Source: a virus. From it: a stretch of 43,351 nucleotides of DNA. The stretch covers positions 1-43,351 of the IMG/VR virus record IMGVR_UViG_3300042015_000035. One strand, 5' to 3'. The notes below the pieces were generated by a model. The model was not told the origin of the DNA. It was given only the letters and a program-made list of their open reading frames with translations, and ran no database searches. A program made the position numbers and the translations under genes. Below, piece by piece: positions 15,885 through 23,186 of this stretch (positions within the stretch are counted from its first letter, which is position 1; every line of letters starts with the position of its first letter).

Positions 15885-16093
15885 TCTGTTCTGTGTGCAA
15901 AACCAAGCCAGTAACCATACAAGGCGCCTCAACCTGTAGCTTAAGGTGTGCTACTGAGGCGTGCGGCGATGATCCAGAGCTTGTTCAAAAGCGGCTTAGA
16001 GAGCAGGTTCAGGAAGTTAACAATATCTGCATAAGTGAGCGCGAGAGATTGCAGGCTGAGTGGCGTAGGGCGAATCCGGGGCTGATGAGATGA
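15881..16093 (+). CDS. Small zinc-binding protein
   Basis: The 70-aa protein starts MICSVCKTKPVTIQGASTCS and has two cysteine pairs (CSVC and CSLRC), a probable zinc ribbon, then a charged helix. ATG overlaps the NinB-like stop; TGA overlaps the NinG start. Function unknown. Confidence 0.65.
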   Translation: MICSVCKTKPVTIQGASTCSLRCATEACGDDPELVQKRLREQVQEVNNICISERERLQAEWRRANPGLMR

Positions 16094-16692
16094 ATCGCAC
16101 ACCAAGGCCGCGCCCGTGCCCAGTATGCCGCGAAGAGTTCACCCCAAAGCGAATACCTAACACGCTGAAAATCACGCCATGCTGCACTAACCCTGGATGT
16201 GTTCTGGATTACGCCCAGGGGCTTAGGGCGAAGGATTTCAACCGGGAAACCAAAGCCATGAAAGATAAATTTCTGGATAACGACGTATCGCACTGGAAAA
16301 AGAAGGCTCAGAAGGCGTTTAACGAGTTTATCAGGCTGAGGGATGCGCACCTACCTTGCGTATCGTGTGACAAGCCATATGACTGGCACGGGCAATGGCA
16401 CGCAGGGCACTACAAAACGACCGGTGCGCGCCCTGATTTGCGTTTTAACGAGGATAACTGCCACAAGCAGTGCTCTGTATGTAATAACCACCTATCAGGC
16501 AACCTGGCAAACTACAGGTTGGAGCTGGAAAACAGAATCGGCATGGATAGGCTGCTGGCACTTGAAGTTGTGCTCAAATCAAAACCTATTAGGCTGGCTG
16601 ACTACAAAGAAATACATGTCAATTACACGGCCAAAATAAAAGAATTAAAATATCTTCAAAATAGTGTTGACAGTGGGGCATCCACATATTAA
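16090..16692 (+). CDS. ninG: NinG/Rap recombination endonuclease
   Basis: The 200-aa protein matches NinG (Rap): an N-terminal zinc ribbon (CPVCREEF ... CCTNPGC), then KAQKAFNEFIRLRDAHLPCV, SCDKPYDWHGQWHAGHYKTT, and ARPDLRFNEDNCHKQCSVCN. In lambda, Rap is a structure-specific endonuclease acting on recombination intermediates. It closes the nin-like block. Its last codons contain the -35 of the next promoter. Confidence 0.9.
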   Translation: MNRTPRPRPCPVCREEFTPKRIPNTLKITPCCTNPGCVLDYAQGLRAKDFNRETKAMKDKFLDNDVSHWKKKAQKAFNEFIRLRDAHLPCVSCDKPYDWHGQWHAGHYKTTGARPDLRFNEDNCHKQCSVCNNHLSGNLANYRLELENRIGMDRLLALEVVLKSKPIRLADYKEIHVNYTAKIKELKYLQNSVDSGASTY

Positions 16693-17858: not shown

Positions 17859-17935
17859 CAGAGCGTAATGTCAATTGGTAGGCGGCCGCCCTTGGATGGC
17901 GGGGGTTGTAGGTTCGAGTCCTACCGCTCTGACCA
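17859..17935 (+). tRNA. tRNA-Pro(UGG)
   Basis: The 77-nt sequence folds as a cloverleaf. Acceptor CAGAGCG/CGCTCTG (C1-G72 as in proline tRNAs), D stem TGTC/GGCG with loop AATTGGTA, anticodon stem CCGCC/GGCGG with loop CTTGGAT (anticodon TGG), and T arm GTAGG-TTCGAGT-CCTAC. Then comes discriminator A and encoded CCA. It reads CCA and probably other proline codons. It directly follows a structured RNA. Confidence 0.93.
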
Positions 17936-19412: not shown

Positions 19413-19580
19413 ATGAAGCTTAAATCTACCGGTCAAGTTGTTGAAGATCTGCCTTTTGTTGGAGTTGGTCACGCTCCATGGCCTACTGATTATCGCCGTG
19501 TGTTGATAGCCAATGACTGTAAAAACGGTAATCGTGCAGTAACTCAGATAGTTCATATTTCGAAACTGTCTGAAAAGTAA
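19413..19580 (+). CDS. Hypothetical protein just before the large RNA
   Basis: The 55-aa protein (MKLKSTGQVVEDLPFVGVGH...) looks like a small beta-rich fold. TGGAGA lies 7 nt before ATG 19413. Its stop is immediately followed by the large gene-free RNA region. Not recognised. Confidence 0.6.
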   Translation: MKLKSTGQVVEDLPFVGVGHAPWPTDYRRVLIANDCKNGNRAVTQIVHISKLSEK

Positions 19581-20366
19581 TTGATTTACGCGCAGCCTCT
19601 CTCGCGGATGTACAGAGAGGCCACCGATCTGGGTATTGGCTGACGTACGGGGCATTATTGTCTGCGTCATAAGGGAAGCTAGCTGCTCTAGCCATCCAGT
19701 ATCCAGTTCGGTGTCAAGCCAAAGTAGTTCTGGTAGGCTCAGAGCGAATAACTGGCACCGCCCATTCTCACGAGTGGGCAACCGTGTGGTAGCTCAGTGA
19801 TGTCAAGTGCCTGTTTATGTCGGCCAGTATTGAGTTATCACACGGTTGAATTTACCGACCCGCTTAACGGTATTAGGCGGCTTTGATCCGAGTATCGGGT
19901 ACCTGAAGTGTACAGTGGGGTTGATCACCACACCCGGTATTCGGTTCAAAGAATTAGCCAGGATGGCGAAAGATCGTACCATCACAATACTCCCAAGTAG
20001 TGATGCAGGCCGCAGTCTCTACGACTGAAGAAGTGATAGCACAGAAACCTTAAGTGGTCTCGTAGCTTGCCATTTTACTGCGGCTCGGTTGGCAAGGTGA
20101 GGGAGTTGGAAGCTTGGGAAGACAAGCAGATTGCGGATTCTAGTTAGTCCGCAGCCTTAAGTCCTTTGTGTAGCTCAGAATTGCTTAGAGCGGTGGACTA
20201 GTGCAGTCCGCAGGTCACTGGTTAAAGTCCGGTCACAGAGGCATTAAGGCTGATAATCAACAAGAGGTGCGGAAGGTGTATGGCGCATTATAAATGCCAG
20301 ACAGCCTGGAAAGACGGGCACAAATTCAACCGCCTGCCGTTTGGCAATGCTTGCATGTAGGTAAAT
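19581..20366 (+). ncRNA. Large ornate structured RNA (GOLLD/ROOL-type candidate)
   Basis: A 786-nt stretch with no plausible gene but many long stems. Examples: 19595-19602/19614-19621 (8 bp); 19760-19766/19773-19779 (7 bp); 19780-19796/19831-19847 (17 continuous pairs, two G-U); 19881-19900/19932-19951 (20 positions, one mismatch, two G-U); 19980-19985/20000-20005 (6 bp); 20066-20072/20090-20096 (7 bp); 20112-20116/20123-20127 (5 bp); 20132-20137/20148-20153 (6 bp). A 9-bp stem 20152-20160/20244-20252 frames a tRNA-shaped domain. Size, phage setting and tRNA association recall GOLLD and ROOL RNAs, which form RNA-only cages. Family membership is inferred, not shown. Confidence 0.8.
20164..20241 (+). 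ncRNA. tRNA-like domain inside the large RNA
   Basis: A cloverleaf is visible: acceptor CTTTGTG/CACAGAG (one G-U), linker TA, D stem GCTC/GAGC with 11-nt loop, anticodon stem GTGGA/TCCGC, variable AGGTC, and T arm ACTGG-TTAAAGT-CCGGT. Unlike a working tRNA, the anticodon loop has nine bases (or five with two extra pairs), the T loop lacks its usual C, and no CCA follows (CATT). It is enclosed by a 9-bp stem of the host RNA. It is more likely a structural mimic than a decoding tRNA. Confidence 0.75.
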
Positions 20367-20573
20367 ATGAAATTTGATATAAGCCCAGAATGGCGCGAGA
20401 AAATGGCAAAGAAGGAAAACGGCATGGAAATAGGCGCTGGTAAAAGTATATTCAACGATGTTGAGTTGTGCCCCAAGTGCCTGAATTCTCGCCCGGCAAA
20501 AGATTGGTGCGAATGCTGCGACGGCGTTGGACTTATTGATGTTGGCAAGCAAAACAGCCCGTACGGGGATTAA
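20367..20573 (+). CDS. Small zinc-binding protein
   Basis: The 68-aa protein contains CPKCLNSRPAKDWCECCDGV, a DnaJ-like zinc pattern with two CxxC units. The N-terminal part (MKFDISPEWREKMAKKENGM) is helical. It starts right after the large RNA. Function unknown. Confidence 0.65.
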   Translation: MKFDISPEWREKMAKKENGMEIGAGKSIFNDVELCPKCLNSRPAKDWCECCDGVGLIDVGKQNSPYGD

Positions 20574-21329: not shown

Positions 21330-21535
21330 GCTTATCAAAAGAAGATATGGCATTAGAGGCGTTGATTAAGCTTGTAACTGAGCTTGAGGGATCATGCACA
21401 AGCTACTTCGTAAATGATAAAACCCTAAAATATGCCAATGAAGCATTGAACGCCAATGGATGGGAGGTTTATCTAGATAAGTCCACGCGGGCGCACCACC
21501 GAAAAATAGATGCGGTCAATGCGGAAAAGGCTTAG
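21326..21535 (+). CDS. Hypothetical protein between terminase subunits (TTG start)
   Basis: The 69-aa protein (MSLSKEDMALEALIKLVTEL...) starts at TTG 21326, overlapping the TerS stop, with a strong GGAGGTG site 7 nt upstream. The end overlaps TerL by 26 nt. Function unknown; it may couple the two terminase genes. Confidence 0.6.
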   Translation: MSLSKEDMALEALIKLVTELEGSCTSYFVNDKTLKYANEALNANGWEVYLDKSTRAHHRKIDAVNAEKA

Positions 21536-23186
21536 CGCTCCCGCAATTGTAGCTCTTGAGGAAAGGTATGCCGCTAAGTCAGGCAATGCCCACTCAACAG
21601 TATTTGGAATAGTAAGCGCTGAAGGCAAGCACCTACACTCGATTGAATGCGTAGATGGTGAATGGGTAAGAACTGATAAGCCTGTCACGATATACACAGC
21701 AGAGAAGCTTGAGCGAGCGGTAACCACAAAGAAGCGTTTCGTTATCATCTATGGTGGTCGCGGGTCGATGAAGTCGGTTGGTGCAGTAGATATATGCACA
21801 GCTGGCGTTATGGATTATGCGGATAAGGTATTCTGTCTGCGAGAGTTCCAGTCATCCATTGCAGAATCTGTACATGCGCTAATCAAGGAGGAGATAGTAA
21901 GGCTTGACCTGCCAAACTTTGAAGTGCTGGATACCACCATCCGGTATAAGTACGGCGGCGAGTTCAAGTACATGGGCCTGGCAAGAAATCCGGCCAGTAT
22001 CAAATCAGCTGCCGGGTTTAGGAGATTCCTGATTGAAGAGGCGGCCACACTAAGCGAAGACTCAATTACCAACCTGACGCCTACAGCAAGAAACAAGGCA
22101 AGGTCTGGTCTCCCGGGTGTTGTTACAGAGGACAGAAAGGACGCTATCGGCGATGTTCAGATGTATTTCATTGCCAACCTTAATTCTAGTGAGGATCCAT
22201 TTAGCAAGCGCTTTATATTGCCGTTCCTGGATGTGTTGAATAGAGATGGATTTTACGAGGACGACCTGCACCTAATCATCAAGATGAACTACACAGACAA
22301 CCCGTGGTTCGCTGATTCAGGATTAGAGGGTGAAAGGCTATTCGACCTTGAGAACAAACCAAGAGCTGTTTACGATCACATTTGGCTGGGTGCATTTTTG
22401 GATACTGTTGACAACTCAATTATAATGGCTGAATGGTTCGATGCTTGCGTAGATGCGCATATCAAACTTGGGTTTGAGCCTACTGGACAAGAGCGTTTAG
22501 CGTATGATCCTGCCGATTCAGGAGACGCCAAGGCGGTTGGGTACCAGCATGGATCTGTGGTTACAGGGGTAAGCAGCACCAATTCTGGCGATGTTAATAC
22601 GGCCACTGATTGGGCGCTTGGATTCGCTGTTAAGCTTAAGCCTGATGTATTCCTATGGGATAGTGACGGGCTAGGAATAAGCCTCCGCAGGCAGATCATG
22701 GAAGGCTTGAAGGGCAAGAAGATCAAGATAGTCCCATTTCATGGTGTAGAGACTCCGCAATATCCCAATGATGTGTATGACGGGATAGAGGGTGAGGGAT
22801 TCTTTGACATTGAAAGCGGTCGCACCAACTCGGCAATGTTCCTAAACCTACGGGCGCAGAACTACTGGCGGTTACGCGACAAGATGTTTAAAACCTATCT
22901 GGCAGTGGTGAAGGGTAAGTACTTCCCGCCAGAACAGTTGATAAGCTTCAGCTCTGGCATTAAAGAACTAGCCGGGTTAAGGGCTGAGATATGCAGAATA
23001 CCGCGCAAATTCGGTAATAATAATGGTAAAATCCAGATTTTAAGTAAGCCTGAAATGAAGCTTAAGAAAATCAAATCACCTAACATGGCAGACGTTGTAA
23101 TGATGCTACAGTCTGAAATTGACATCTACGCAGCTGAAGACGACTACGACGATTCCGATCAGCGAGCTACTGGAGAGTGGGCATGA
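21510..23186 (+). CDS. terL: Terminase large subunit
   Basis: The 558-aa protein is a packaging motor. ATPase domain: Walker A GGRGSMKS (82-89), Walker B RRFLIEEAAT (171-180), coupling motif IANLNSS (221-227). Nuclease domain: acidic sites AYDPADSG (D333), FLWDSDGLG (D384, D386). It packages DNA into the procapsid through the portal and cuts the concatemer. It resembles the P22-type/Terminase_3 group, consistent with headful packaging. ATG 21510 lacks a clear ribosome site; ATG 21519 is an alternative. Confidence 0.92.
   Translation: MRSMRKRLSAPAIVALEERYAAKSGNAHSTVFGIVSAEGKHLHSIECVDGEWVRTDKPVTIYTAEKLERAVTTKKRFVIIYGGRGSMKSVGAVDICTAGVMDYADKVFCLREFQSSIAESVHALIKEEIVRLDLPNFEVLDTTIRYKYGGEFKYMGLARNPASIKSAAGFRRFLIEEAATLSEDSITNLTPTARNKARSGLPGVVTEDRKDAIGDVQMYFIANLNSSEDPFSKRFILPFLDVLNRDGFYEDDLHLIIKMNYTDNPWFADSGLEGERLFDLENKPRAVYDHIWLGAFLDTVDNSIIMAEWFDACVDAHIKLGFEPTGQERLAYDPADSGDAKAVGYQHGSVVTGVSSTNSGDVNTATDWALGFAVKLKPDVFLWDSDGLGISLRRQIMEGLKGKKIKIVPFHGVETPQYPNDVYDGIEGEGFFDIESGRTNSAMFLNLRAQNYWRLRDKMFKTYLAVVKGKYFPPEQLISFSSGIKELAGLRAEICRIPRKFGNNNGKIQILSKPEMKLKKIKSPNMADVVMMLQSEIDIYAAEDDYDDSDQRATGEWA

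Follow-up and report, generated by a model that had tools for sequence, protein, structure and literature searches.

The RNAs GOLLD (RF02032) and ROOL are large, ornate, phage-borne, and associated with tRNAs, which occur in some GOLLD linkers and, as tRNA islands, near both RNAs (Kretsch et al. 2025, PMC12286853). Among self-cleaving RNAs, theta ribozymes lie near phage tRNAs, have an HDV-like rather than a hammerhead fold, and cleave at a site adjacent to the tRNA (PMC10879173). Hammerheads are known from intergenic regions of phages and prophages, e.g., PaP3 and Bcep176, and the article text of Perreault et al. (2011, PMC3088659) gives ~40% as the share of hammerheads with a pseudoknot joining stems I and II; no late-leader or terminase placement was found in that text. 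The phage RNA described here is like GOLLD and ROOL in size, ornateness, phage origin, and tRNA association but differs in having no match to their covariance models, in holding a ribozyme, and in its mosaic distribution. Its ribozyme, predicted to be self-cleaving, shares the vicinity of tRNAs with theta ribozymes and the intergenic phage setting with the earlier hammerheads. However, its pseudoknots do not connect stems I and II; they link a strand of stem I and the loop of a hairpin to the 3′ flank. Some of the 19 members reported below may figure in the alignments of Perreault et al.

A structured RNA between nin-type and terminase genes

The window, i.e., the whole 43.35-kb stretch of DNA analyzed, is an IMG/VR contig from an uncultivated phage that encodes NinG (16090 to 16692; PF05766), a DnaB-type helicase, and a Terminase_3 large subunit (21510 to 23186). 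The ornate stretch, some 780 nt long, lies between the nin-type and the terminase genes, bounded by the stop of a 55-aa open reading frame (ORF; 19413 to 19580) and the ATG of a 68-aa ORF (20367 to 20573). The initial annotation, made from the letters alone, had seen no plausible gene here, and none of the ORFs tested inside or across the stretch matched Pfam or PHROG. A scan for promoters and terminators around the region gave hits at chance level, with no clear one flanking it, and BLASTN of the whole RNA against phages and plasmids returned tRNA pieces only, or nothing.

Folding of the sense strand gave a minimum free energy of −306.4 kcal/mol, compared to a shuffled mean of −256.3 kcal/mol (SD 7.45; z = −6.73), while the antisense strand reached z = −4.01. 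The earlier reading as a large structured phage RNA is borne out, on the sense strand. The long stems reported earlier were recovered as well: the longest, given as 17 unbroken pairs, in fact has 21 (19779 to 19799/19828 to 19848), and the stem of 20 positions with one mismatch lies where domain 2 is listed in the table. An 18-position helix with one mismatch was found at 19622 to 19639/19696 to 19713. Since the longest helix in 60 dinucleotide shuffles of the same length averaged 16.2 pairs with a maximum of 20, a helix of 21 pairs stands out only modestly on its own, and the weight rests on the total fold and on covariation. A helix closing the ends of the stretch (ATTTAC/GTAAAT) was set aside, as its six pairs could be chance.

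Membership in the GOLLD/ROOL class had been proposed, or else a new giant RNA class, and the covariance-model check named for this purpose matched neither family in the window at the gathering score. With all Rfam families at E ≤ 5 over a 4-kb region, neither appeared, and nothing beyond the tRNA was worth keeping. A dedicated GOLLD search (E ≤ 10) of the window and seven related records was empty, the control genomes themselves giving only signals below the cut-off. What stands of the proposal is a large structured phage RNA with a tRNA-like domain; the covariance models give no sign of GOLLD or ROOL membership. The alternative of one new giant RNA is right in that neither family is matched, but it missed the hammerhead, and the RNA is a mosaic whose modules are distributed separately.

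Table: Coordinates of the RNA features (positions in the window unless a locus is named)
Feature	Position	Strand	Evidence
Whole intergenic ornate RNA region	19581..20366	+	fold z −6.73; no protein family for internal ORFs
Hairpin h1, directly before M5	19595..19621	+	fold; L085 and L007 have an h1-like hairpin in the corresponding position, differing in sequence
5′ module M5, outer helix closing a three-way junction, conserved linker ATAAGGGAA	19622..19713	+	
Hairpin h2, GCCCATTC-TCAC-GAGTGGGC	19760..19779	+	fold; L003 has nearly the same hairpin, L085 a weaker counterpart
Long helix P_L, 20 unbroken pairs next to h2 (21 counting 19779-19848)	19780..19847	+	
Domain 2, 20-position helix with one mismatch (19881-19900/19932-19951)	19881..19951	+	helix/shuffle analysis
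M3, double-pseudoknotted hammerhead ribozyme module	19972..20106	+	HMM, CM 120.4 bits, covariation
Hairpin d (19980-19985/20000-20005), loop with conserved AAGTAG	19980..20005	+	97.6% of cells paired, 4/6 pairs with two-sided change
Pseudoknot helix f (19989-19993/20102-20106)	19989..20106	+	6/6 counted pairs with two-sided change
Helix a (20009-20016/20077-20084), outer part of stem I	20009..20084	+	7/8 pairs with two-sided change
Stem I (20019-20024/20060-20065)	20019..20065	+	100% of cells paired, 2 pairs with two-sided change
Catalytic core strand CTGAAGA (C3-A9, N7=A)	20025..20031	+	sequence
Stem II GTG/CAC below A-A mismatch	20033..20042	+	
GAAA (G12-A15.1), stem III CC/GG, U16.1 at 20058, C17 at 20059	20044..20059	+	
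Pseudoknot helix c (20066-20072/20090-20096)	20066..20096	+	5/6 counted pairs with two-sided change
Small hairpin GCTTG/CAAGC after M3	20112..20127	+	sequence; counterparts in L056 and L084 by eye
9-pair stem (about 20152-20160/20244-20252) extending the tRNA-like acceptor stem	20152..20252	+	fold
Degenerate tRNA-like domain (ARAGORN: tRNA-His GTG)	20164..20242	+	
GGTGAATGCGCAGGCTGATGCGC-type RNA	L026:1234-1760, L029:960-1330, L038:890-1490, L086:2180-2560, L087:2380-2590		

The 3′ hammerhead module and its relatives

The 3′ module M3 has the hammerhead layout in type I order: CTGA(N)GA, stem II, GAAA, stem III, UH, and closing stem I. The CUGANGA...GAAA core and the U16.1-H17 site are present in the window as CTGAAGA, GAAA, and UC, with three stems at the core, of which stem I and the 15.1-16.1 pair show covariation and stems II and III were checked in each sequence and as literal strands. 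The predicted cut falls between C20059 and U20060. Beyond the six-pair stem I, the module continues through an internal loop into helix a; the 3′ side of that internal loop pairs beyond helix a (helix c), and the loop of the upstream hairpin d pairs with the 3′ end (helix f). Helices a, I, and f thus span the predicted cut, while c lies wholly on its 3′ side. By its core, its helices, and their covariation, M3 is a hammerhead of a distinct subfamily, in which helix a continues stem I and c and f form pseudoknots.

A literal check of the strands found every ribozyme helix kept in the window copy. The nested part of the module has −26.5 kcal/mol, compared to a pseudoknot-free minimum of −37.1 kcal/mol (ViennaRNA prefers another fold), and c and f as free duplexes contribute −9.3 and −5.4 kcal/mol, so that the knot is roughly competitive. 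In place of the G-C pair found under stem II in consensus hammerheads, the window copy has an A-A mismatch; it also has A at N7, and these departures, common to several relatives, make the rate of this ribozyme uncertain.

Relatives were sought by fetching terminase neighbors and then searching them. One locus, L056, shared the 3′ module with the window (E = 6e-6), and pattern scans added L084, again with the 3′ module. A strict hammerhead pattern scan of the loci assembled by then recovered the window, L056, and L084 only. BLASTN of L084 led to Klebsiella Taipeivirus phages, later to 15 isolate records with most of the module, and to two Escherichia coli genomes, with the prophage copy of E. 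coli JNQH497 scoring 76 bits. A refined pattern yielded seven more members and a last pattern five more, for a total of 19 distinct members (the window, L056, L084, L092, L097, L098, L100, L105, L106, L107, L110 to L112, L114, and L116 to L120). An HMM built without the window sequence recovers the window M3 at E = 3.3e-13. Pattern matches in L089 and L090, from one-per-species genomes, were chance matches inside genes, and those in L091, L108, L109, L113, and L115 were also judged chance. A covariance-model search of 369 genomes of the class of a gammaproteobacterial MAG, a set holding no positive control, gave no match.

On the members scanned, no Rfam 15 family reached its curated threshold, the best being Hammerhead_HH9 (RF02275) at 26 bits; at the gathering score, no hammerhead was found in the window or in ten member loci. 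In a 151-base search, L084 aligned end to end with the HH9 model at 26.4 bits (E = 6.1e-5), half the curated cut-off of 52 bits; the listed HH9 matches did not include the window. The module and HH9 have in common the catalytic core, the three stems, the type I order, and a stem I continued beyond an internal loop, but the module adds hairpin d and pseudoknots c and f and frequently has an A-A or C-A mismatch under stem II.

Covariation among relatives, named as a check in the initial annotation, proved real. The core, the NUH site, and the three stems are kept in 14 of 14 aligned members, all with a CTGANGA core strand; in one of them, the E. coli prophage, G replaces A15.1. An alignment of six sequences already has 91.7% of cells paired and two-sided changes at 17 of the 33 pairs (0 of 500 shuffles). 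With 14 sequences, 96.1% of cells pair and 24 of 33 pairs show two-sided change (105 such cells), with covariation in each of helices a, c, d, and f. The window row is one base shorter in one strand of f, which shifts its register there. No shuffle out of 500 reached the observed score, paired cells, or two-sided pairs, and 42 did so for further pair types; this control is inflated by related sequences, whereas structures slid along the same alignment, a control that keeps relatedness, paired only 32 to 52% of cells. On this comparative evidence, the statement best supported by the study is that M3 is a hammerhead whose pairing is under strong selection.

Members recur in a few genomic settings (gene identities in unannotated contigs were read from protein sequences). 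The module ends ~20 nt before a small-terminase-like ORF in L107 and ~37 nt before a terminase-large-like ORF in L110, and it lies shortly before terminase-small-like ORFs in L114 and L056. It follows Q-like genes in L105, L106, L118, and L100 and stands behind antitermination protein Q in the E. coli JNQH497 prophage. In the Klebsiella phages DP01 and KlebP_265, it ends 12 to 13 nt before a tRNA-Ser (12 nt in DP01), and in Taipeivirus it precedes a tRNA array, within a 3.2-kb stretch that has no annotated gene in phage MDA2066 and small annotated ORFs in other records. In the window, ~790 nt separate M3 from the downstream terminase small gene, and this interval holds a further small ORF. What unites these settings is a leader position ahead of late genes or a tRNA array. 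A few kilobases downstream of the terminase-linked hammerhead, three related phages carry the Rfam DUF2815 RNA motif (L107:9988-10047, L112:2676-2735, and L114:5374-5433).

Other modules of the RNA and of related phages

The 5′ half is a separate module common to three related phage contigs and has compensatory changes, in a comparison of three or four sequences. M5 is 87% identical over 107 nt to L007 and was aligned with L007 and L085, the latter added by pattern scans for its M5 and similar 5′ architecture. In separate foldings, the window and L085 each adopt h1, the M5 three-way junction, h2, and the long helix, so that the M5 fold was recovered independently. L003, whose terminase is 87% identical to that of the window phage, has h2 and the long helix and no recognizable M5. 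Counterparts of P_L have the same place and length with different sequence in L085 (14 of 21 pairs differ on both sides) and L003 (14 of 19). No hammerhead was found in L003, L007, or L085, which share parts of the 5′ half, and the RNA is therefore a mosaic. By eye, the arms of domain 2 (GATCCGAGTATCGG/CCGGTATTCGGTTC) look as if they had diverged from a copy of the M5 outer helix (GATCTGGGTATTGG/CCAGTATCCAGTTC), the differences being compensatory. The noncoding RNA region of the close relative L003 (514 to 1620) is 1.1 kb long and has a terminator-like end.

The tRNA-like domain noted earlier inside the stretch was found by ARAGORN and, in a small Rfam search, by the tRNA model at 39.3 bits (cut-off, 29), although it was absent from the whole-window gathering run. 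Its anticodon arm has seven pairs and a 5-nt loop, compared to the canonical five pairs and 7-nt loop with U33, and the elbow features G18G19 and C56 are changed (D-loop GC, T-loop TTAAAGT). In the L003 counterpart (1351 to 1462; 46 bits), a long structured insert replaces the anticodon arm; those in L007 and L085 encode CCA. All four domains appear to be structural tRNA mimics rather than decoding tRNAs. The separate upstream tRNA, earlier placed about 1.7 kb away, is a tRNA-Pro (17859 to 17935) ~1.6 kb from the stretch.

Further RNA elements were observed in these phages. In MDA2066, 3.2 kb before the tRNA array (L092:1690-4903) hold tmRNA-tag-like, STnc100-like, and hammerhead elements, along with an Rfam STnc100 match at L092:4093-4306 (48.7 bits; cut-off, 47). 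The array itself (L092:4904-5854) is placed by the MDA2066 record on the strand opposite to that given by ARAGORN and by the annotation of the related phage Zahir. The tmRNA-tag-like short frame (L092:2707-2739, L094:1542, L095:1544, L096:1510, L097:3656, L098:1729, and L099:1965) reads ANDNTFLAVA, ANEEMYLAVA, or ANDNVFLAVA and then a stop; the E. coli tmRNA tag ends ANDENYALAA. The element occurs in hundreds of phages, including the late leader of lambdoid HK633 and the tRNA arrays of Felixounavirus. ARAGORN found no tmRNA in it and the Rfam tmRNA models gave weak partial scores only; it is possibly a phage tmRNA mimic. Another conserved noncoding RNA, of the GGTGAATGCGCAGGCTGATGCGC...GCCGGAGATCAGC.CCGGCC type, resembles STnc100/PasD. 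It occurs in Pseudomonas phage AH02, Leptolyngbya phages, and metagenomic phages in the vicinity of terminase or NinG, and tRNA-like domains often accompany it. The group B RNAs (L026, L029, and L038), conserved noncoding RNAs at a similar place, were rejected as hammerheads.

Proposed role and rival readings

We consider it probable that the RNA is a mosaic, self-processing structured late-leader RNA. Upon transcription, it would be cut within M3, leaving a 5′ product (an ornate fragment with M5, h2, P_L, and domain 2) that would end in a cyclic phosphate and a 3′ product whose 5′-hydroxyl end would be folded into the knot. Because helices a, I, and f join them, the two fragments may stay together after the cut. 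As relatives stand directly before terminase genes or behind antiterminator Q, the usual job of the module would be to mature the late mRNA leader, giving it a defined, RNase-resistant 5′ end. Cutting, joined fragments, and late-mRNA maturation are what we infer from core, topology, and position. The module would in this phage have gained two additions, the ornate 5′ domain and the non-decoding tRNA-like domain; as a guess, the 5′ domain could be a protein- or ribosome-binding scaffold released by the cut.

The order of hammerhead and then tRNA in the window, DP01, and KlebP_265 would also suit a tRNA-processing cassette, in which the hammerhead would aid the release of the tRNA behind it, a role proposed for theta ribozymes, which adjoin phage tRNAs (PMC10879173). 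We regard this as unlikely, since the cut site in the window lies ~100 nt upstream of the start of a tRNA that looks non-decoding and no tRNA directly follows the module in the terminase- or Q-linked members. It is also quite improbable that the hammerhead is incidental to a GOLLD- or ROOL-like giant RNA that forms a multimeric cage, where the tRNA-like domain would serve as linker or cargo. Comparable size, phage origin, the internal tRNA-like domain, and the tRNA associations of GOLLD and ROOL speak for such a cage, but the searches for both families were empty, and the halves of the window RNA are distributed separately, unlike the universally conserved 3′ region of GOLLD.

An equally low probability attaches to a decaying mosaic, in which a tRNA gene, a hammerhead, and further RNA elements would survive as remnants and no longer have a function. 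Decay could explain the degenerate tRNA-like domain, the core-adjacent departures of the ribozyme, and the shuffling of modules between phages, but not that all ribozyme helices are kept in the window or that the 5′ half keeps its fold through compensatory changes. Very unlikely is a regulatory sRNA region of the prophage type, similar to STnc100/PasD, with host mRNAs as pairing targets. In its favor, prophages are the source of the sRNAs STnc100 and PasD (PMC13192938), and STnc100-like elements lie beside the same hammerhead in Klebsiella phages, but the window has no match to STnc100 (RF02076) at the gathering score or at E ≤ 5.

Beyond the self-processing late leader proposed for this phage, we tentatively suggest that ornate, self-processing phage RNAs form a class not catalogued before. 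In it, a hammerhead subfamily with two pseudoknots would mature late-gene leaders across many phages; in some of these it would have become the part responsible for processing within giant modular RNAs that also include tRNA-like, STnc100-like, and tmRNA-tag-like modules. Phage hammerheads have, to our knowledge, been scattered and without an agreed role, and the recurring place of this one (before terminase, behind Q, and before tRNAs) points to a testable role in maturing late phage transcripts. Experiments are possible now, as the module is available in isolate phages and in an E. coli prophage. A double pseudoknot that could hold both cut ends is an unusual design that merits structural and kinetic study, and the large ornate RNA around the ribozyme adds to the very few giant RNAs known from bacteria and phages.
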